Origin: Mesorhizobium sp. M2A.F.Ca.ET.046.03.2.1
Lineage (GTDB): Bacteria; Pseudomonadota; Alphaproteobacteria; Rhizobiales; Rhizobiaceae
NCBI RefSeq assembly: GCF_003952425.1
Contig: NZ_CP034449.1
Coordinates: 2,790,001 to 2,854,000, forward strand
Direction: 5' to 3'
Length of the DNA stretch: 64,000 nucleotides
The notes under the pieces are model-generated. The model ran no database searches and was not told where the DNA came from. It was given only the letters and a program-made list of their open reading frames with translations. Below, in pieces: positions 53,889 through 64,000 of this stretch; the first letter of the stretch is position 1; each line of letters begins with the position of its first letter. A program made the translations under genes and the position numbers.

Positions 53889-54464
53889 ATGAACGCGCGT
53901 ATCCTCGGATTGGCGGCCTTTGCCGCTTGCCTTGCCGTGCCTGCCGTTGCCGCGGTGGCGCTCAGCGACGCGGCCGGCAGCTACACGATCAGCCCGTCTG
54001 GCTCCTCGATCCGCTTCACCATCGGCAAGGCCGGCGGCGGCGGCTTCGACGGCGCTTTCGGCCGCTTCAAGGGCACGATCCGCATCGACAATGGCGATGT
54101 CGGCCGCTCCAAGGTCGACCTCACCATCTATCCCGAAAGCGTCGGCACCGGTCAGGCCCGCATCGATGCCTTCCTGCGCTCCGACGCGGTGTTCGACGCG
54201 GCCAACAACCCGGAGATCCAGTTCCGCTCGACCAGCGTGACGCGCACCGGTGACACGACGGCGGTCGTTACCGGGCGCCTGACGGCGCGCGGCAAGACGT
54301 TTCCGGAGAAATTCACCGCCGAGCTCGGCGGATTGAAGGGCGGGACCATCAAATTCCACGTCACCGGCAAGGTGCTGCGGTCGCGCTACGGCATGGATGT
54401 CGGCACGCCGCTCTATTCCAATGTCGTCGACTTCGACATGACGCTGACGGGGAAGAGGGGGTAG
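53889..54464 (+). CDS. YceI-family periplasmic protein
   Basis: A 191-residue protein with a signal peptide ending AVAAVALSDAA near residue 24. The rest is a YceI lipocalin-like barrel: SYTISPSGSSIRFTIGKAGG at the start, FKGTIRID, and KFTAELGGLKGGTIKFHVTG near the end. YceI proteins bind isoprenoid quinones or other hydrophobic ligands. With the upstream cytochrome b561 it probably forms a two-gene unit. The start follows CGGAAGGAAG. Confidence 0.92.
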   Translation: MNARILGLAAFAACLAVPAVAAVALSDAAGSYTISPSGSSIRFTIGKAGGGGFDGAFGRFKGTIRIDNGDVGRSKVDLTIYPESVGTGQARIDAFLRSDAVFDAANNPEIQFRSTSVTRTGDTTAVVTGRLTARGKTFPEKFTAELGGLKGGTIKFHVTGKVLRSRYGMDVGTPLYSNVVDFDMTLTGKRG

Positions 54465-54475
54465 GCACAGCACAT

Positions 54476-54672
54476 TTCCTCGCCCCCGCGAAGGCGGGGG
54501 AGAGGTGGCTCGGGCGAAGCCCGAGAACGGAGCGGGGGCGCCCTCCGCGACGGCAGAGCCTTCGCAGAATTGTGCTGTCGTGAAGCCGTCCCACTCCGAA
54601 GCTGCGTTCTACGAAGGCCCCTCTCCGTCCCGGCTTCGCCGGGCCACCTCTCCCCACTGCGTGGGGCGAGGA
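54476..54672. repeat. Inverted repeat element, TTCCTCGCCCCC...GGGGCGAGGAA type
   Basis: Left end TTCCTCGCCCCCGCGAAGGCG with GGGGAGAGGTGGC; right end GCCACCTCTCCCC with GTGGGGCGAGGAA, about 197 bases. Inner CGGGCGAAGCCCG and CGGCTTCGCCGGG hairpins. It fills most of the 287 bases between YceI and the oxidoreductase gene. Confidence 0.8.
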
Positions 54673-54751
54673 AGCGCGCCGCCTCCTGCATTGGCTTTTC
54701 CGTCGATTTCAGGCAAACCTCGTCGCCTGTAAACCGACATGGAGAAGCGTG

Positions 54752-55738
54752 ATGTTCCGATGGGGTGTTCTGTCGACGGCAAAGATCGGCCGCGAGCAGC
54801 TTTTGCCGGCAATCGTGGATTCGGAGAACGGCGTCCTGTCGGCGATCGCCAGCCGCGACCTGTCGAAGGCCAAGGCGCTGGGCGAGCGTTTCGGCGCCCG
54901 CCATGCTTTCGGCTCTTATGAGGAACTGCTTGCCTCCCCGGACGTCGACGGCGTCTACATCCCGCTGCCGACCTCGCAGCATGTTGAATGGACGGCGAAG
55001 GCGATCGAGGCCGGAAAGCATGTGCTGGTGGAAAAACCGCTGGCGCTCGACGCCAAGGACATCCCGCCGCTGATCAAGCTGCGCGACCAAAAGAAGGTGC
55101 TGGTCTGCGAGGCGTTCATGGTCACCTATCACCCGCAATGGATCAAGGTGCGCGATCTGATCGCCAGCGGCGCCATCGGCCGGCTGCGGCACGTGCAGGG
55201 CGCCTTCTCCTACTACAATGTCGATCCCAACAACATGCGCAACAAGCTAGACCTCGGCGGCGGCGCGCTGCCCGATATCGGCGTCTATCCGACGGTGTCG
55301 ACGCGGTTCTCGACTGGCAAGGAGCCGATCCGCGTGCAGGCGACGATCGAGCGCGACAAGACCTTCGGCACCGACATCTATTCCTCGATCCGCGCCGATT
55401 TCGGCGACTTCGAATTGTCCTTCTATCTCTCGACGCAGATGGCGGCGCGCCAGGTGATGGTGTTCCACGGCGAGAAAGGCTTCATCGAGGTCTTCGGCCC
55501 GTTCAATGCCGGGCTCTACGAGCACCACCGCATCGAGCTGCACAACCAGAACCATACCGAGGCGCAGGTGTTCCGCTTCCCCGGCACGCAGCAATACCGG
55601 CTGGAATGCGAGGCCTTCGTGCGCGCCGCACAGGGCGGCAAGGACCGCGTCTTCACGCTGGAGGAATCGGTGCTCAACCAGAAGGTCATCGACGCCATCT
55701 TCCGCGCCGGCGACAAGGACGGCTGGGAGCCGGTCTGA
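54752..55738 (+). CDS. Gfo/Idh/MocA-family oxidoreductase
   Basis: A 328-residue NAD(P)-dependent oxidoreductase. The N-terminal Rossmann fold has [23 protein letters not shown] holds the conserved Lys-Pro; [13 protein letters not shown] is the C-terminal domain entry. Relatives act on sugars, inositol or dihydrodiols. Substrate is unknown. The start (ATG after GGAGAAG) is chosen over the GTG at 54749. Followed by a palindromic repeat. Confidence 0.92.
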
Positions 55739-55752
55739 CGATTTTTGCTTTT

Positions 55753-55799
55753 ACGCAATTCCAAACGGAAAACCGCGTCACACTTCTCCTGAATTGCGT
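55753..55799. repeat. Palindromic repeat, ACGCAATTCC family, copy 3
   Basis: ACGCAATTCCAAACGGAAAACC at left and CACTTCTCCTGAATTGCGT at right, 47 bases, same orientation as copy 1. It lies 14 bases after the oxidoreductase stop. Confidence 0.85.
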
Positions 55800-55839
55800 A
55801 GGTTTCGAATAAGTTTGCCGGCTCATTCTGGGAGGAAAA

Positions 55840-57495
55840 ATGGCTGACGCGGACGTGATCATTGTCGGCGCGGGGCTGGCGGGCCTCGTCGCCGCTGCCG
55901 AACTGGCGGAGGCCGGCAAGAAAATCATCATCGTCGACCAGGAGCCGGAACAGTCGCTGGGCGGCCAGGCCTTCTGGTCCTTCGGCGGACTGTTCCTGGT
56001 CGATTCGCCGGAGCAGCGGCGCATGCGCATCCGCGATTCGCACGACCTCGCGCTCGAGGACTGGATGGGCACGGCCGCTTTCGACCGCCCGGAGGATTTC
56101 TGGCCGCGCAAATGGGCCGAGGCCTATGTCGGCTTCGCCGCCGGCGAGAAGCGCTCCTGGCTGATCGAGCGCGGCTTGAAATTCTTCCCCGTCGTCGGCT
56201 GGGCCGAGCGCGGCGGCGGCAATGCCGTCGGCCACGGCAATTCGGTGCCGCGCTTCCATGTCACATGGGGCACCGGACCCGGCGTGCTCGAACCTTTCGT
56301 GCTGCGCGTGCGCGAGGCGCAGAAGCGCGGGCTGGTCGAATTCAGGTTCCGTCATCGGGTCAACGAGATCATCCGCACCCGCGATACCGTCACCGGCGTG
56401 CGCGGCGACGTGCTGGAGGCGAGCAGCGTCGAGCGCGGGCATAAGAGCTCGCGCGCCGTGTCCGGCGCGTTCGAGCTCAGCGCGCAAGCAGTGATCGTCG
56501 CTTCCGGCGGCATCGGCGGCAATCACGAGCTGGTGCGCAGGAATTGGCCCGAGCGCCTGGGCGCGCCGCCCAAGCGCATGATTACCGGGGTGCCCGACCA
56601 TGTCGACGGGCGCATGCTTGCGATCACCGAGGCCGCGGGCGGCAGGATCATCAACCGCGACCGCATGTGGCACTATGTCGAGGGCATCAAGAACTGGGCG
56701 CCGATCTGGACCGAGCATGCGATCCGCGTCCTGCCCGGTCCCTCCTCGATCTGGCTCGACGCGCGCGGCAAGAGGCTGCCGGTGCCGCTCTATCCGGGCT
56801 TCGATACGCTCGCCACGCTTAGCCATATCATGGGCACCGGCTTCGACTATTCCTGGTTCATCCTGACCAGGAAAATCATCCAGAAGGAGTTCGCTCTGTC
56901 GGGCTCCGAGCAGAATCCGGACCTCACCGGGAAGAGCTGGCGGCAAGTGCTGGGCCGCGCGACATCGGGCATTCCCGGCCCGGTGAAAGCCTTCATGGAA
57001 AAAGGCGAAGACTTCATCGTCGAGGCCGACCTTTCAAAGCTGGTGGCGCGCATGAACGCGCTGGCCGGCGGCGAGCCGCTGCTGGACGTCGCCCAGGTCG
57101 AGCGCGAGATCCGCGCCCGCGACAGGCAGCTCGACAACCCGTTCTCCAAGGATGCGCAGATCACGGCGCTGCGCGGCGCGCGCACCTATCTCGGCGACAG
57201 GCTGATCCGCACGGCCAGGCCGCACAAGATGCTCGATCCGGCGAACGGCCCGCTGATAGCGGTGCGCCTCAACATCCTCACCCGCAAGACGCTGGGCGGG
57301 CTTGAGACCGATCTCGACAGCCGCGTGCTCGATGCCGCCGGACAGCCGGTTCCGGGGCTCTACGCGGTCGGCGAGGTAGCCGGCTTCGGCGGCGGCGGCC
57401 TGCATGGCTATGCGGCGCTGGAGGGCACCTTCCTCGGCGGCTGCATCTTTTCGGGGCGCAGCGCCGGACGGGCGGCGGCGGCCACGATTGCGTGA
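55840..57495 (+). CDS. FAD-binding dehydrogenase (KstD/fumarate-reductase-like)
   Basis: A 551-residue flavoprotein. The N-terminal FAD motif is DVIIVGAGLAGLVAAAELAE; QSLGGQAFWSFGG follows; AVIVASGGIGGNHELVRRNW and the C-terminal GLYAVGEVAGFGGGGLHGYA bind FAD. It belongs to the FAD-binding dehydrogenase group related to 3-ketosteroid 1-dehydrogenase and fumarate reductase flavoprotein. The substrate is unknown. It starts at an ATG after GGGAGGAAAA. Confidence 0.92.
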   Translation: MADADVIIVGAGLAGLVAAAELAEAGKKIIIVDQEPEQSLGGQAFWSFGGLFLVDSPEQRRMRIRDSHDLALEDWMGTAAFDRPEDFWPRKWAEAYVGFAAGEKRSWLIERGLKFFPVVGWAERGGGNAVGHGNSVPRFHVTWGTGPGVLEPFVLRVREAQKRGLVEFRFRHRVNEIIRTRDTVTGVRGDVLEASSVERGHKSSRAVSGAFELSAQAVIVASGGIGGNHELVRRNWPERLGAPPKRMITGVPDHVDGRMLAITEAAGGRIINRDRMWHYVEGIKNWAPIWTEHAIRVLPGPSSIWLDARGKRLPVPLYPGFDTLATLSHIMGTGFDYSWFILTRKIIQKEFALSGSEQNPDLTGKSWRQVLGRATSGIPGPVKAFMEKGEDFIVEADLSKLVARMNALAGGEPLLDVAQVEREIRARDRQLDNPFSKDAQITALRGARTYLGDRLIRTARPHKMLDPANGPLIAVRLNILTRKTLGGLETDLDSRVLDAAGQPVPGLYAVGEVAGFGGGGLHGYAALEGTFLGGCIFSGRSAGRAAAATIA

Positions 57496-57587
57496 ACGGA
57501 GGGGGCAGGTGATCGCCGGGTTAGCGACAACGCTGTAGGCTTTTTCAGTCAACAGTTGTCGACCGAACTCCAATCAGCGGGAAGAGC

Positions 57588-58562
57588 ATGCGCATCATCG
57601 TCTATGGCATCGGCGCGATAGGAGGCGCCATCGCGGCCCAGCTGAGTTTTTTCGGCCACACGGTCCTCGGCATCGCCCGCGGCAGGCAGCTTGATGCCAT
57701 CCGCGCTTCGGGACTGTCGCTTTCCACTCCGCAAGGCACCAGGACCGCGCGCTTTCCTGTCTATGCCGACCCGGCGGAGATTTCCTTCGAGCCGGACGAT
57801 GTCGTGCTGCTGACGATGAAAACGCCAGACACGCTCGGCGCGCTGCAACGGCTCAACGCCGCCGGCCTGGCGACGCAACCCGTATTCTGCTTCCAGAACG
57901 GCGTCGCCAACGAGGCGCTGGCCTTGCGTTTCTTTGCCAATGTCTATGGCGCAACGGTGATGCTGCCGGCCGATTACGACACGCCCGGCGAGGTCGGGAC
58001 CTATTTCGCGCCCAAGATCGGCGCCTTCGACATCGGCCGCTATCCTTCCGGAACCGACGACGCGGTCGAGAAACTGTGCGGGGTCCTGAGCACGTCCGGC
58101 TTCATCGTCGAGGCCAGGGACAATGTGATGGACAGCAAATACCGCAAGCTGCTGGCCAATCTTCGCAACATCATCGACGCGGCGCTTGGCGACACCGAGC
58201 TTCAGCGGAAATGGTATGCCAGGGCGCTCGCCGAGGCGGAGGCGGTGCTGACCGCCGCCGGAATAGCGTGGGACAAGACCGACGCCATGGCCCGCCAGGA
58301 ACTGACCATAACCGCCATTCCCGGCCGAACGCGCGTCGGGTCGTCGACGCTGCAGAGCATCGTGCGCGGGACGGGCTCCCTCGAAACCGACTTCCTCAAC
58401 GGCGAGATCGTGCTGCTCGGGCGGCTGCACGGCATGGCGACGCCCGTCAACGCAGCCTTGTGCAGACTGTCGATCGCGCTGGCCAGCGGCCGGATGCGGC
58501 CGCAATCGGCCGGCGACGACACGATCGCCTCCATGATCGGCGCGGCCGACGGAACCGGCTGA
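57588..58562 (+). CDS. Ketopantoate reductase-like (PanE/ApbA) dehydrogenase
   Basis: A 324-residue protein with an N-terminal Rossmann fold (IIVYGIGAIGGAIAAQLSF) and the two-domain PanE/ApbA layout. VLLTMKTPDT and FQNGVANEALA are family features; the catalytic Lys is probably that of YRKLLANLRNII. True PanE makes pantoate for CoA, but many paralogues act on other 2-oxo acids, and no panB/panC is nearby, so the substrate is left open. Starts at MRIIVYGIGAIGG. Confidence 0.85.
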   Translation: MRIIVYGIGAIGGAIAAQLSFFGHTVLGIARGRQLDAIRASGLSLSTPQGTRTARFPVYADPAEISFEPDDVVLLTMKTPDTLGALQRLNAAGLATQPVFCFQNGVANEALALRFFANVYGATVMLPADYDTPGEVGTYFAPKIGAFDIGRYPSGTDDAVEKLCGVLSTSGFIVEARDNVMDSKYRKLLANLRNIIDAALGDTELQRKWYARALAEAEAVLTAAGIAWDKTDAMARQELTITAIPGRTRVGSSTLQSIVRGTGSLETDFLNGEIVLLGRLHGMATPVNAALCRLSIALASGRMRPQSAGDDTIASMIGAADGTG

Positions 58563-58655
58563 TCGCCGGAGGCAATCAAAAAACAGAGCCGCCCGAGAAT
58601 CCTTTCGGGCCCATGGAACGTCTTCCTCATGCAGACCCGCAAACAGGAGACTCCC

Positions 58656-58976
58656 ATGACCTACAATCTGATCCGCTATGGCGTGAAGGACGCCAACATC
58701 GCCGAGAACCGGGCGCTGGTGGAAAAAGTGTTCGAGGCGCTGGACGAAACGCAGCCGCGATCGGTGCGCTATCTGGTGCTTGAGTTGGATAACGGCGAGT
58801 TCGTCCACCTTGTCGGCTATGACAAGGACAGCTCGGCGCTGACCGAGCTCGACGCGTTCAAGGCGTTCAGCGCCGATCATGCCGGCCGGCGTTCGACGCC
58901 GCTTGTGAGGTCGCCGGCGAAGATCGTCGGCGATTATCGTATGCTGGCCAGGGCCAATGAAGCCGTGCCCGCCTGA
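58656..58976 (+). CDS. Small hypothetical protein, possibly alpha-beta-barrel
   Basis: A 106-residue protein that I do not recognise. It begins TYNLIRYGVKDANIAENRAL and has the pattern RYLVLELDNGEFVHLVGYD, with a strand-helix-strand alternation like dimeric alpha-beta barrel (monooxygenase-like) proteins. The start follows AACAGGAG. It ends 31 bases before the ECF sigma factor gene, so the two may be co-transcribed. Confidence 0.72.
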   Translation: MTYNLIRYGVKDANIAENRALVEKVFEALDETQPRSVRYLVLELDNGEFVHLVGYDKDSSALTELDAFKAFSADHAGRRSTPLVRSPAKIVGDYRMLARANEAVPA

Positions 58977-59007
58977 CCTTGGCATTGGCGAGGCGAGAAA
59001 GAGGACG

Positions 59008-59895
59008 ATGAGCTTGGCAGGGTTCGGCCGCGCGGAACTTGAAGCCATGCTCGTCGGCCTGCGCCCGAAACTGCACCGCTATGTCGCGCGCATGGCGGGC
59101 TCCGCCGTCGAGGGCGAGGACATCGTGCAGGAGGCAGTGGTGAAGGCGCTCGCCGCCCATGATGGCGGCGCTCTCGTCGAACGCCCCGAGCAGTGGCTGT
59201 TCCGCATCGCTCATAACGCGGCGCAGGATCATCTGCGCCGCCGCCAGCGGGAGCGCTCCCGCGTCACCGAGGCCGACATGACAACGATCGAGGATCTCTC
59301 GGCCAACGCCGAGGTGAGGCTCGCGGCGGCGGCAAGCCTGCGCAGCTTCATGCAGCTTACGCTGGCGCAGCGCAGCGCCGTGATCCTCGTCGACGTGCTT
59401 GGCCTCACCTTGCATGAGACCTGCGAGGTGACGGGCGCGACGCTTGCCGCCACCAAGGCGGCTCTGCATCGCGGCCGGGCGGAGCTGAAGGCGCTGGCTT
59501 CGGCGCCGGCCGATCTCGCGATGCCGAAACTCGAACCGGAAGAAGAGCGCCGGCTGCGCCGCTATATCGAGCTGTTCAACGCGCGCGATTTCGACGGGGT
59601 CAGGGCGCTGATCGCCCAGGACGTCCAGGTCGACGTCGTCAACCGCACCCGCCTCACCGGCAAGAAGGAAGCCTCGACCTATTTCGGCAATTACGAGCGC
59701 CTCGGCGACTGGACACTGTCGCTCGGCTTTGTCGATGGCCTGCCGGCGATCCTCATCCGCAACCCGCAGGCGGACGATGCCGTGCGCGGCTTCGTGCTGG
59801 TCCATTGGCGCGGCGAAGAGGTTGTGCGCATCCGCGATTTTCGCCATGCAGCCTACTGCCTCGAGAATGCAGACATCCATCCCGTCGGCGTTTGA
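59008..59895 (+). CDS. ECF-type sigma factor with NTF2-like C-terminal extension
   Basis: A 295-residue sigma factor. Region 2 (about 14-80): HRYVARMAGSAVEGEDIVQEAVVKAL and EQWLFRIAHNAAQDHLRRR. Region 4 (about 110-165): TLAQRSAVILVDVLGLTLHETCEVTGATLAATKAALHRGRAELK. The last ~110 residues are an NTF2/SnoaL-like domain (RRYIELFNARDFDGVRALIA and so on). Such fused tails act as built-in regulators in ECF41/ECF56-like groups, replacing an anti-sigma factor. No anti-sigma gene is adjacent. Start at MSLAGFGRAEL follows GAGGAC. Confidence 0.88.
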   Translation: MSLAGFGRAELEAMLVGLRPKLHRYVARMAGSAVEGEDIVQEAVVKALAAHDGGALVERPEQWLFRIAHNAAQDHLRRRQRERSRVTEADMTTIEDLSANAEVRLAAAASLRSFMQLTLAQRSAVILVDVLGLTLHETCEVTGATLAATKAALHRGRAELKALASAPADLAMPKLEPEEERRLRRYIELFNARDFDGVRALIAQDVQVDVVNRTRLTGKKEASTYFGNYERLGDWTLSLGFVDGLPAILIRNPQADDAVRGFVLVHWRGEEVVRIRDFRHAAYCLENADIHPVGV

Positions 59896-59945
59896 TCGTC
59901 GCGTGAGGCACTGCTCCATCAAATCATCGTGAAGCCGCGCGATCG

Positions 59946-60066
59946 TCACGGATCGGCCATCAGCGCAGCAGCATAGGCCTGCTCGAAGTCGGCCAGTCCC
60001 CGGTCCCATACGCGCCACGGCACGATCATTTCACCGTCCGCGAAGAAGGCGCCTGGCCAGCCGTCG
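59946..60066 (-). pseudogene. Coding remnant (C-terminal fragment) of unknown gene
   Basis: About 40 codons on the minus strand with coding-like third-position G/C, reading DGWPGAFFADGEMIVPWR and then WDRGLADFEQAYAAALMADP before a stop at 59946-59948. In-frame stop codons lie just upstream in an AT-rich stretch and no start is seen. It looks like the tail of a lost gene cut near 60067, beside the promoter region of the chimera gene. The family is not recognised. Confidence 0.45.
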
Positions 60067-60129
60067 TTAGTTTTTTATCATTTCACCACTCACGTAATGC
60101 GGGCGGACAGGAGCCCGCGAGGTTCTCTG

Positions 60130-61734
60130 ATGTCTCTTACCGAAGCCACCAAGCCCGCCAAGCAGGATTCCCGCAAGGCCAAAGCAGCCACCGCGGCGCC
60201 GCCGCGCGAGCAGATCCTGATCGGCCCTGATTTCATCCAGAAAGGCGAGCCGCATGAGCGGCTCGACCGGTTATTCGCCGATCTGGCGAGCCGCTTCGAT
60301 GCCGCACCGGCGGTCATCTCCGGCGGTCGGCGCTGGTCGTATCGCGAGCTGAACAGCCGCGCCAACCAGTTTGCCCATCTGTTGATCGAGCGCGGTGTCA
60401 AGCCAGGCGACAGGATTGGCCTTTTGCTCGACCGCTCCGCCGAAACCTACATCGCGGTGCTTGCAGTGATGAAGGCCGGGGCGGCATTCGTGCCCTTGGC
60501 CACCGCGTTTCCCGAAGACCGTATGGTGATGATCATCGAGGACGCCAACGTCACGATGGTGATCAGCGTTTCCGGTTATGCCGCGCGCGTGGCGCGCCTG
60601 CCCGTTCCGCATATCTCGATCGATTCGGCGGAGTCCGAAATCGCGCTCCAGCCGGAAACGGCGCCCTTGCCGGAAGGCGCCCAGGATCAGCCGACCCTCA
60701 TCCTCGTCTACGAGCCGGAAAAGGCCTGCCTCGACCGCCTGTCCGCCGACGGATACCCGGCGGATCGTGCCCTGGAAATTTCGTCCTATCTGGCGCAGTC
60801 GACCGACCTTGCGCCCGAATTCGACTTGCTCGCCGCCGCCTGCGAGAAGCGCGGCCTCGCTTTCAAGCCTGTAGAGCTCGACGACGCGGTGCCGGTGCTG
60901 GCAAAGGCCGATCCCGCAACAACGCTGGTCTGGACGCTGACCGACGGCATTGCCTATTTCCGGGGCGGCGCTTCGCCGGCGCTGGCGCGGCTGAACGGGC
61001 TGCGCACCATCGGCGCCGACGATTCGCTGTTTGCGCTCTGCCAGGACAAGTTCCGCTGCGGCGCCGTGCTTGGCGCGCTCGGCCTGCCGGTGCCGCAAGC
61101 CGGCCTGGCGCGCAACGGCGAATGGCTGGTCGAGCCGCCGGCCTCGCCCAAGGGCTGGTTCGTCAAGCCGAAGCGGCTCGGCGCCAAGATCGGCATCTGG
61201 CCGGATTCGCGCATCACCGATCTCGGCCATGCGCTGGAGCTTAGCCGGCGCGTCTTTTCCCATTACCGCGACGACGTCGTCGTCCAGCCCTATGTCGCCG
61301 GCCGCAACGTGCGCGCGAGCTTCCTTGGGCTAAAGCCCGAAACCGGCATCGAGGCGCTTGGTATCTTCTTCGTCGATTCCGGCGGCGACTTCCAGACCAT
61401 GGCCGACTCGATGGCGCTTTATGGCGAGACCGGCCAGGCCGCGAAGGATGCGGGCACCTATGTCGAGCCGGAGCTGGAGGCTGTCGGCGCCAGCCAGCCG
61501 GCGGCGGATCGAAAAATCCGCGCCATCGCGCAAAAACTGATAAGCGGTCTCGGCCTGAGAGATGTCTTTTCCGTCGACCTCAGAGTCGACGCTGACGACA
61601 CCGTCCACCTCATCGAGTTCGAAGTCTGCCCCGGCCTGCCCTGCTTCGATTTTCGCGACTATTGCCGCAGGGAATGGGGCATGAGCCTCGCGGATGCGAT
61701 GGCTGAGACGGCGGCCAATAGGCTCTTTCGCTAA
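60130..61734 (+). CDS. Chimera: truncated NRPS-type adenylation domain plus Ddl-like ATP-grasp ligase
   Basis: A 534-residue protein of unusual build. Residues about 40-195 match the start of an amino-acid adenylation domain: motif A1 RRWSYRELNSRANQF (67-81) and A2 VMKAGAAFVPLATAFPEDR (113-131). Where motif A3 (the ATP loop TSGSTG) should follow, the sequence reads LILVYEPEKAC, so the adenylating core is missing. Residues about 200-534 match D-Ala-D-Ala ligase: LCQDKFRCGAVLGALGLPVP, WFVKPKRLGAKIG, VVVQPYVAGRNVRAS, and metal ligands Asp483 (FSVDLRVD), Glu496 and Glu498 in IEFEVCPGLP. It may ligate amino acids or peptides. The start at MSLTEATKPA is chosen over 60097. It ends in a 4-base convergent overlap with the next gene. 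Confidence 0.8.
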   Translation: MSLTEATKPAKQDSRKAKAATAAPPREQILIGPDFIQKGEPHERLDRLFADLASRFDAAPAVISGGRRWSYRELNSRANQFAHLLIERGVKPGDRIGLLLDRSAETYIAVLAVMKAGAAFVPLATAFPEDRMVMIIEDANVTMVISVSGYAARVARLPVPHISIDSAESEIALQPETAPLPEGAQDQPTLILVYEPEKACLDRLSADGYPADRALEISSYLAQSTDLAPEFDLLAAACEKRGLAFKPVELDDAVPVLAKADPATTLVWTLTDGIAYFRGGASPALARLNGLRTIGADDSLFALCQDKFRCGAVLGALGLPVPQAGLARNGEWLVEPPASPKGWFVKPKRLGAKIGIWPDSRITDLGHALELSRRVFSHYRDDVVVQPYVAGRNVRASFLGLKPETGIEALGIFFVDSGGDFQTMADSMALYGETGQAAKDAGTYVEPELEAVGASQPAADRKIRAIAQKLISGLGLRDVFSVDLRVDADDTVHLIEFEVCPGLPCFDFRDYCRREWGMSLADAMAETAANRLFR

Positions 61735-62018
61735 ACGCCCTCGACCAGCACGATCTCGCCGTCGGCCACTTTCTGGCGAATGGCGGCGGCGCGCTGGTAT
61801 TCCGGCGAGTGGTAGCAGTCATGCGCCACGGCCAGCGATTCGAACTCGATGATGACGTTGCGGGCGCGGCCCGGCCCTTCGGCCTTTTCATGCTCGCCGC
61901 CGCGCGCCAGGAATTTCGCGCCGAAGCGATCGAAGGCGAGCTTCGCGGCGGCGACATAATACTTGTATCCCTCGGCGTCGCGCACATCGACGCGAGCGAT
62001 CCAATATCCCTTGGGCAT
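61731..62018 (-). CDS. DUF1330 domain protein, paralogue 2
   Basis: A 95-residue DUF1330 protein with KGYWIARVDVRDAEGYKYYV at the start and SLAVAHDCYHSPEYQRA near residue 65, clearly related to the 7278-7568 protein. The start at MPKGYW is chosen over 62042. The stop overlaps the end of the convergent chimera gene. Function is unknown; the fold is probably a dimeric ferredoxin-like one. Confidence 0.87.
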   Translation of the reverse strand: MPKGYWIARVDVRDAEGYKYYVAAAKLAFDRFGAKFLARGGEHEKAEGPGRARNVIIEFESLAVAHDCYHSPEYQRAAAIRQKVADGEIVLVEGV

Positions 62019-62048
62019 TGCGTTCCTCCTGTTTGCGCGCACGGAGCG

Positions 62049-62180
62049 AGGACCGGTTCCGAAAGTCGCTCCGGTGAGGCAGCTGGTGGTTTTTTCGAGA
62101 ACCGGAGCGGAGCGTACTTAAAGTACGTGAGTACCGGAAGCGCAGAAAACGCGCCGGAGTAGAGTTTCAGAACCGGTCCT
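62049..62180. repeat. Long palindromic element with CGTACTTAAAGTACG centre, copy 2
   Basis: 132 bases, inverted relative to 45081-45221. Ends AGGACCGGTTC and GAACCGGTCCT; inner GAGAACCGGAGCGGAGCGTAC and GTACGTGAGTACCGGAAGCG. The right end overlaps the first base of the pyrF stop codon on the minus strand. Confidence 0.85.
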
Positions 62181-62863
62181 CAGGCCGACTGCATCTCGGC
62201 GATTATCGCCTCGGCCGCGGCGCGGCGGTCCGGCGCCTTGACGATCGGCCGGCCGACGACGAGATGGCTGGCGCCGTTGCGGATCGCCTGCGCCGGCGTC
62301 ACCACGCGTTTCTGGTCGCCATGGTCGCTGCCCGACGGGCGGATGCCCGGCGTCACCACCGCCAGGTCGGGGCCGACGATGCGGCGCACCGCTTCGGCCT
62401 CTTCCGCCGAGCAGACGATGCCGCCCATGCCGGCATGCAGCGCCTGTTCGGAGCGCCTGAGCACCAGCGTGTGCGGGTCGTATTCATAGCCGGCGTCGAT
62501 CATGTCCTGCTCGTCCATCGAGGTCAGCACCGTCACACCAAGCAGGCACAGATCGCTGCCTTTGGCCGCCTCGACAGCCGCTCTCATCGTTTTGGGATAG
62601 GCATGCAGCGTCAGCATCGAGACACCCATTTTGACGATGTTCTCCACGCCCTTGGCCACGGTGTTGTCGATGTCGAGCAGCTTCATGTCGAGGAACACTT
62701 TGGTGCCGCCGCTGGCGAGCTCCCGCGCGAAGTCTAGCCCGCCGGCAAAGGCCAGCTGGTAGCCGATCTTGTAGAAGGAAACGGCGCCTTCGAGCTCGCG
62801 TACCGCCGTCTCGGCCTCCTTCAGCGTCGGAAGGTCGAGCCCGACGATCAAACGGCCCCGCAT
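62180..62863 (-). CDS. pyrF: Orotidine 5'-phosphate decarboxylase
   Basis: A 227-residue TIM barrel that makes UMP from OMP. Catalytic Lys and Asp residues are in [19 protein letters not shown] at the start and VTPGIRPSG plus [11 protein letters not shown] near the end bind ligand and phosphate. The start at [11 protein letters not shown] is chosen; upstream in-frame ATGs overlap the neighbouring FMN reductase gene. It is 23 bases after that gene on the same strand. Confidence 0.95.
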
Positions 62864-62886
62864 CGTGTCTGCCTCCGCGAAATTGA

Positions 62887-63483
62887 TCACACCTCGATCC
62901 GGGTCGACAGCATGCGCGAGGTTTCCATCAGTGTACGGCATAGGCGCTCCATCGATTGGTGTAGTCTGGCGTCCCTGAATTGTCCGTCCTCGGCGAAGGC
63001 TTCGTCGGCCTCGGAGACTGAGCATTCCGGCGTGATCACCTCCATCTGGCAGCGCACCAGCACCGCGCGCAGATGGTTGATGCAGCGTATGCCGGCGAAC
63101 TTGCCCTCGGAGGACGAGCAGAGCCCGACCGGCTTGCCGGCAAGCGGCCTGAAGGTGCGGCTGCCCTCACGGCGTATCCGGCTCACCCAGTCGATCGCGT
63201 TCTTGAGCAATGGCGGGATCGAGCCGTTATATTCGGGCGTCGCGATCAGGACCCCGTCATGCGCCGCGATCTGGCGGCCGAGCCTGAGCGCGTTCTCGGG
63301 GATGCCTTTTTCCTTTTCGAGGTCCTCGTCCATGATCGGCAGCGGATAGTCGCCGAGCGAGATGCGCGTCACTTCCGCGCCCTGCACGGCCAATTCCTTC
63401 TGCGCCACATCGGCGGTCCGGCCGCTATAGGCGCCGGTCCGGACCGAGCCGGCGAAGACGAGGATTCGTAGGATCACTGCCAT
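62887..63483 (-). CDS. NADPH-dependent FMN reductase
   Basis: A 198-residue flavodoxin-fold reductase. FMN-binding loop: [16 protein letters not shown] near the start; [21 protein letters not shown] near residue 80; [12 protein letters not shown] near 120. It reduces FMN or quinones with NADPH; the physiological partner is unknown. It lies upstream of pyrF and the two are probably co-transcribed. Confidence 0.9.
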
Positions 63484-63497
63484 GGGCCTGCTTCGCC

Positions 63498-63600
63498 AAG
63501 GGAGTAGGGGAGTAAGGGAATAGGGCAGTAGGGATAGTGCGGAAACTGAATGTTCATTCCCTATTCCCCTACTGCCTTACTCCCCTACTCCCTTAACCCT
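63498..63600. repeat. Long inverted repeat of GTAGGG/CCCTAC-type units, copy 2
   Basis: Left arm AAGGGAGTAGGGGAGTAAGG with AATAGGGCAGTAGG; right arm CCTATTCCCCTACTGCC and TTACTCCCCTACTCCCTT. Same style as 16552-16690 but not identical in sequence. The right end reaches the stop codon of the pmtA gene. Confidence 0.8.
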
Positions 63601-64000
63601 AATGCGCCGCGCGGCGATAGATCCACAGCTGCGTCGGCGGGATGTTGCGGAAGATGAAATCGAAATGCTCGACGGTGTAGTCGCCGCGCCCCGCCGGGAT
63701 CGGCGACAGCGGGCCGTAGGTCAGCTGCACGATCGGCCGTCCGGCGGGAATGCGGTCGAGCAGGCTTTCGATATAGGCGATGCGCTGGGCGACCGGGAAA
63801 TTGAGCAGCGGCACGCCGGAGACGACCGAATCGAACACCATGTCGCGCTTCTCGCCGAGCGTGGCATTTAGATTGAAGGCGTCGCCCTCGATCACGTTGA
63901 CGCCGGGATAGAGCCCGCGCAGATGGCGCACGAAGTCGGTCGAATATTCGACCGCGTAGAGATTTTCCGGCTTTACACCCTGGGCGAGGATGGCGCGGGT
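63599..64000 (-). CDS. pmtA: Phospholipid N-methyltransferase PmtA, partial (5' end outside window)
   Basis: The last 133 codons of a gene that continues past base 64000. It matches the rhizobial PmtA family, which adds methyl groups from SAM to phosphatidylethanolamine to make phosphatidylcholine. Visible motifs: GVKPENLYAVEYSTDFVRHL, VFDSVVSGVPLLNFP, VQLTYGPLSPI and NIPPTQLWIYRR. The SAM-binding GxGxG region lies outside the window. Confidence 0.88.
   Translation of the reverse strand, partial: TRAILAQGVKPENLYAVEYSTDFVRHLRGLYPGVNVIEGDAFNLNATLGEKRDMVFDSVVSGVPLLNFPVAQRIAYIESLLDRIPAGRPIVQLTYGPLSPIPAGRGDYTVEHFDFIFRNIPPTQLWIYRRAAH

Follow-up and report, generated by a model that had tools for sequence, protein, structure and literature searches.

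An in-frame fusion of a peptide synthetase fragment to an ATP-grasp ligase in Mesorhizobium as the probable by-product of an 88.8-kb inversion

The window analyzed here, a stretch of 64,000 nucleotides (positions 2,790,001 to 2,854,000 of contig NZ_CP034449.1) from Mesorhizobium sp. M2A.F.Ca.ET.046.03.2.1, contains an open reading frame in which the beginning of a non-ribosomal peptide synthetase of the Pls/PosA family is joined to a D-Ala-D-Ala ligase-like ATP-grasp protein. This fusion is very probably a by-product of an 88.8-kb chromosomal inversion in the lineage of the strain, and not a designed two-domain enzyme. The inversion is documented in the assembly by both of its junctions, by their exactness, by a collinear interior between exchanged flanks, and by intact parent genes in related genomes.

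The reading frame lies on the plus strand (60097–61734, with an ATG at 60130), encodes 534 amino acids counted from this ATG, and has no internal stop codon. Two Pfam families in all were found in the protein: residues 53–154 match positions 5–100 of the 384 positions of the AMP-binding profile (E 8.7e-29), which is the first quarter only of an adenylation domain, and residues 344–522 match Dala_Dala_lig_C (E 1.1e-6; 28.7 bits, cut-off 24). PP-binding and Hexapep domains were not among the Pfam matches, and TIGR02353 was absent from the best 25 of 109 NCBIfam matches. The closest sequence matches with solved structures are adenylation domains of peptide synthetases, which align to the front of the protein. 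A sequence-only reading had described an adenylation fragment that carries motifs A1 and A2, ends just before motif A3, and continues in frame into an intact ATP-grasp core, and the Pfam matches bear this out. Likewise, in line with its remark that it knew of no standard family with such a layout, none came up in the searches made here, and the boundary that it had placed at about residues 155–200 is now fixed exactly after codon 187, at window base 60690 (junction A; Table 1). The three ATP-grasp residues that it had singled out, Asp483, Glu496, and Glu498, are all present and show no variation across the 24 rows of an alignment covering the ATP-grasp part only (13 of the 120 proteins listed by the protein search below plus 10 loci). 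Glu498, which takes the place of an Asn in Ddl, therefore characterizes the sampled ATP-grasp proteins, not the fusion; the motif EFE, with Glu for the Asn expected in Ddl, occurs in all 24 rows, which represent a putative ligase that is widespread in Mesorhizobium and Aminobacter. A structure prediction, which the same reading had proposed as a check, gave a Ddl fold for the ATP-grasp half (residues 188–534). Model confidence fell below 50 at residues 1–47, 49–65, and 122–184, a value that is biased for the fragment because the alignment behind the prediction contained ATP-grasp rows only.

Table 1. Features at and around crossover A, in window coordinates.
Feature	Position	Strand	Basis
ECF sigma factor with SnoaL-like tail	58957..59895	+	Pfam Sigma70_r2, Sigma70_r4_2, SnoaL_2; neighbor in the synthetase locus
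Synthetase-derived 5' part, codons 1–187 (adenylation start to just before motif A3)	60130..60690	+	N-termini of relatives
Crossover A: CAG (Gln) common to both parents	60688..60690	+	Exact comparison with unrearranged G126, G109, and L043
D-Ala-D-Ala/D-lactate ligase-like ATP-grasp 3' part, fourth codon to stop	60691..61734	+	
DUF1330 gene, downstream, neighbor in the ATP-grasp locus	61731..62042	-	Pfam DUF1330; flank collinear with relatives

Both parents of the fusion exist as separate genes in related genomes. Residues 1–187 share 89–94% protein identity with the N-terminus of frames of 1,361–1,421 codons in at least 12 same-genus rows. Among the 36 same-genus relatives compared, residues 1–192 match the N-terminus of a frame of 1,367–1,419 codons located elsewhere at 85–94% in G032, G034, G004, G002, G023, G027, and G025, and such a synthetase-like frame was found at 58–65% in twelve further relatives. 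An intact relative, the 1,356-residue protein of locus L038, belongs to the Pls/PosA family of non-ribosomal peptide synthetases (TIGR02353; 845.8 bits, cut-off 423.1) and has adenylation, carrier (PP-binding), and C-terminal domains. According to a published study, enzymes of this family produce amino-acid homopolymers, and a membrane location is predicted for the C-terminal stretch of about 730 residues (PMC10522769). Compared to the known Pls/PosA synthetases (TIGR02353), such as those for epsilon-poly-lysine and delta-poly-ornithine, the two pieces of the enzyme are represented here by residues 1–187 of the window protein and residues 4–1172 of a reciprocal product described below; the adenylation domain is cut between A2 and A3, with 88.8 kb between the two pieces, which are encoded on opposite strands. 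The core from A3 to A10, whose appearance behind the fragment in close relatives the sequence-only reading had named as evidence against its view, does follow in the intact synthetase from A3 onward. An ECF sigma factor gene precedes the synthetase in L038 as it precedes the fusion; its product may regulate the synthetase and, as a consequence, the fusion as well.

The other parent is a free-standing protein of about 350 amino acids. A search of 5.8 billion proteins, with candidates restricted to at most 1.75 times the query length, scored 7,999 candidates and gave 851 hits. The best 120 of these are free-standing ATP-grasp proteins of 339–364 amino acids with 62–66% query coverage and 79–96% identity; those with a named source are mostly from Mesorhizobium, and none of the 120 covers the front of the window protein. 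A close ATP-grasp match is present in 35 of the 36 same-genus relatives (in two pieces in G019, none in G013). In close relatives the free protein starts with MPQPTLILVYE..., and the fusion lacks the first three residues, MPQ. An in-frame ATG no more than 12 codons ahead of the conserved start was found in 76 of 80 named loci, which are those kept from 119 confirmed loci out of 132 candidate stretches; the remaining four (L073, L138, L142, and L145) may use other start codons. Two ATP-grasp rows (G161 and G067) each contain one TAG, inside matches that reach upstream of the usual start and there probably include non-coding sequence. Mesorhizobium records name the PF07478 relatives D-alanine:D-lactate ligase-like, and the one free-standing relative tested against the curated D-Ala ligase families of NCBIfam (P0001) missed their cut-offs by far (TIGR01205, 39.6 bits against 245.65; NF000206, 26.5 bits against 550). 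In comparison with such D-Ala-D-Ala/D-lactate ligase-like proteins (PF07478), residues 188–534 of the fusion, with their Ddl fold, correspond to the whole protein minus three residues, with 187 foreign residues in front and without its own start codon.

The missing pieces of both parents were recovered at a second place in the same genome. When the intact L038 synthetase was compared with this genome, it matched the window (residues 1–193) and positions 2935992–2939519 of the same contig on the minus strand (residues 181–1356, 97% identity, no stop codon); the remaining 14 matches reach at most 35% identity. The second locus, outside the window, contains a frame of 1,172 codons (2935989–2939507, minus strand) that starts with MPQTCYILYTSGTTGKPKG (MPQ/TCYILYTSG...) and consists of the MPQ of the ATP-grasp protein followed by synthetase residues 188–1356; at the DNA level, ATG-CCG-CAG is followed in frame by TCYILYTSGTTG. 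This reciprocal product thus opens with the very MPQ that the window fusion lacks, so that each chimera carries the missing piece of the other, and the residues add up (187 + 347 = 534 in the window fusion, 3 + 1,169 = 1,172 in its partner). A plausible ribosome binding site, GAGG or GGAG, lies ahead of the start of each chimera.

Comparison with the unrearranged G126 locates the crossovers to the base. With a stroke marking the breakpoint, the ATP-grasp gene of G126 starts with ...GATGCCGCAG/CCGACCCTCATC and its synthetase gene reads ...CAGGATCAG/ACCTGCTAC, and the two junctions of the present genome read ...CAGGATCAG/CCGACCCTCATC and ...GATGCCGCAG/ACCTGCTAC. Both crossovers directly follow a CAG that is a Gln codon in both parental frames, and no base was lost or gained, which is why both products are still in frame. 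Since the codon phases have to agree, a conservative exchange would leave both products in frame in one of three cases. The sequence-only reading had named orthologues split into two genes, with a frameshift at this point, as evidence against its view: close relatives do have separate genes, but no frameshift exists at the junction.

The neighborhood comparison that had been suggested along with that reading was carried out against G032. The left flank of crossover A matches the synthetase locus of the relatives and the right flank the ATP-grasp locus. Relative to G032, the segment from 2850690 to 2939501 (88,811 bases) aligns in plus orientation with 454319–547597, and both flanks align in minus orientation: to the left of the window gene the match passes through the synthetase locus in reverse, within the segment it proceeds from the ATP-grasp gene to the remainder of the synthetase, and beyond 2939500 it is again reversed, leading back from the region upstream of the ATP-grasp gene. 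The interior is imperfectly collinear, as 2857979–2863156 and most of 2913647–2924479 have no close match in G032. By eye, the former stretch of about 5 kb (locus L057, 7979–13156) carries genes for a sugar-type ABC transporter and a LacI-type regulator; it is absent from the corresponding place in G032. Arrangements were counted in the listed rows with a synthetase match of at least 85%, among which both genes share a contig in seven genomes. Five of these contain convergent pairs with gaps of 92.2 (G032), 78.9 (G034), 84.3 (G126), 80.0 (G130), and 92.0 kb (G131), and the other two (G004 and G027) have same-strand pairs at distances of 105 and 157 kb. The genes of G005, whose synthetase match is 73%, are divergent and about 659 kb apart. 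The same-strand and divergent pairs indicate that this region has undergone other kinds of rearrangement as well, which, like the gaps in collinearity, tells somewhat against the inversion. A simple deletion that joined two neighboring genes was rejected: in the five relatives with convergent pairs the two genes are on opposite strands, and the DNA between the junctions is still present here.

The fusion was found in a single genome. Among the matches listed for the 146 genomes of the genus, of which 140 have a match at E <= 1e-60, this genome alone has one that spans residues 1–534; the table is sorted by E-value, so that any second fusion would be expected near its top. Correspondingly, no spanning match was listed for any of the 36 same-genus relatives, and the adenylation fragment was absent from the available flanks of all 80 named ATP-grasp loci (tblastn, E 1e-4). 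The domain layout is new among the rows examined and yet accidental, and the kind of event, a gene fusion by rearrangement, is known. Balanced translocations are an example of reciprocal gene fusions by chromosome rearrangement, and the present case resembles these in its two breaks within two genes, crosswise rejoining, and two chimeras; it differs in that it occurred in a bacterium, both chimeras are in frame, and each has the start signals of the other gene. A literature search by titles and the openings of abstracts returned no reciprocal in-frame fusions from a bacterial inversion, which is no proof of their absence.

Neither chimera contains stop codons or frameshifts. Codon changes seen only in this genome (replacement/silent) amount to 2/2 in the 187 codons of the fragment, 1/9 in the 1,167 codons of the rest of the synthetase, and 3/3 in the 343 ATP-grasp codons. 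The same counts in nine relatives are 0–3/2–8, 0–5/6–30, and 1–5/2–11, respectively, so the values of this genome, small numbers though they are, fall within the relatives' own range. For the synthetase, 9 of 12 genomes were used (G002, G023, and G027 were left out), and for the ATP-grasp gene 9 of 10 (without G036). From the codon counts, the absence of decay fits a recent event and would also fit continued selection. The "old fusion scar" considered in the sequence-only reading hence is upheld as a scar, very probably made by inversion, and not as an old one, as no decay was seen.

Several other explanations have to be weighed. The same reading had also proposed a docking or substrate-recognition module, that is, a selected two-domain enzyme in which the adenylation fragment serves the ATP-grasp ligase. 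The clean frame, the intact ATP-grasp core, and the undecayed fragment would agree with such an enzyme, but we consider it extremely improbable: the search for the same architecture returned no other listed row spanning both parts, the reciprocal partner and the exact junctions account for the fusion as a by-product, and the fragment ends inside a domain and has long stretches of low, albeit alignment-biased, model confidence. Most unlikely, too, is an assembly artefact in which the inverted segment was misjoined within the single contig of 7.37 Mb. The confinement of the fusion to one genome, with no second strain among the rows listed, would be expected from a misassembly; misjoined inversions, however, normally need long shared repeats, and at this crossover the two ends have 3 bp in common. 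The longest words shared in the surrounding 2 kb, 12 and 13 bp in length, are not located at both junctions, and both junctions are base-exact and reciprocal. A rare variant in the culture may also be behind the assembled arrangement.

A fully conservative and reciprocal exchange without loss at either end is what a site-specific recombinase would leave behind if it flipped the 88.8-kb segment and thereby switched synthetase and ATP-grasp ligase on and off. The chance of such a reversible switch appears close to negligible, as the longest word shared at the crossover is just 3 bp and none of the 145 other genomes of the genus spans both parts among the matches listed. It is also highly improbable that the chimeras assemble in trans, with the adenylation fragment on the ATP-grasp protein supplying what the membrane synthetase lacks of its adenylation domain; if they did, one inversion would have created a two-protein complex in which a Ddl-like amino-acid ligase is tethered to a poly-amino-acid synthetase.

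In the preferred explanation, an accidental inversion, two breaks would have occurred, in the Pls/PosA synthetase gene behind codon 187 and in the ATP-grasp ligase gene behind codon 3, and their crosswise rejoining would have produced the window fusion (synthetase residues 1–187 plus the ATP-grasp protein from codon 4) and its partner (MPQ plus synthetase residues 188–1356). We infer illegitimate joining, either by end joining or by template switching at the 3-bp match. A match of at least 3 bases is expected at about 5% of random joints (our own arithmetic, assuming equal base frequencies) and thus is at most a hint at the mechanism. Three Ku loci in this genome make end joining possible, and several Ku loci are carried by rhizobia according to excerpts of an earlier study (PMC5124664). 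In Rhizobium etli, the excerpted results of another study attribute 23% of repairs in one strain to end joining, report mostly one to a few bases lost at the joined sites, and describe one set of deletions from which microhomology was absent (PMC10932983). The lossless joints of the present genome are not typical of this process, so end joining is a candidate mechanism only. Repeat-mediated recombination was rejected: copies of a dispersed repeat of about 60 bp do not coincide with the junctions but stand 1.4 kb to the right of A and 8.5 kb past B. Among the matches listed (40 of 52 candidates were scored), this repeat (window 62085–62150, plus strand) occupies 40 places in the genome, and a count by eye puts 34 of these on the minus strand. 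No inverted repeat of 8 or more bases occurs inside it, and no Rfam family reached its gathering score in window 54000–64000, which includes the repeat.

The window fusion would be made from the start signals of the synthetase and would work as an ATP-grasp ligase with an inert N-terminal extension; the ATP-grasp part is probably still active and the extension probably idle. A possible internal start of the ATP-grasp protein is the TTG at codon 180, which of the in-frame candidates ahead of the junction lies closest to it. The reciprocal product, by contrast, would be made from the start signals of the ATP-grasp gene and be unable to activate its amino acid, and the poly-amino-acid pathway would thereby be lost. 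The synthetase is probably dead, as predicted from the splitting of its adenylation domain over two loci. The synthetase frame of G005 is shorter and its reading frame shifts after about residue 494 (two frames matched, 1–494 and 495–1345). This broken gene (locus L161, C1:1634000–1640500 of G005, minus strand) reflects either a disruption that arose independently or an error in sequencing; provided that it is not the latter, it suggests that loss of the synthetase is tolerated elsewhere as well.

For the interpretation of domain fusions found in one genome, the lesson is that a reciprocal partner should be looked for before a function is proposed. The present locus shows, to the exact base, how a single crosswise repair of two breaks would yield two in-frame chimeras with swapped start signals, at a stage before decay, and the naturally split polymerizing synthetase provides a ready test of adenylation-domain complementation in trans.
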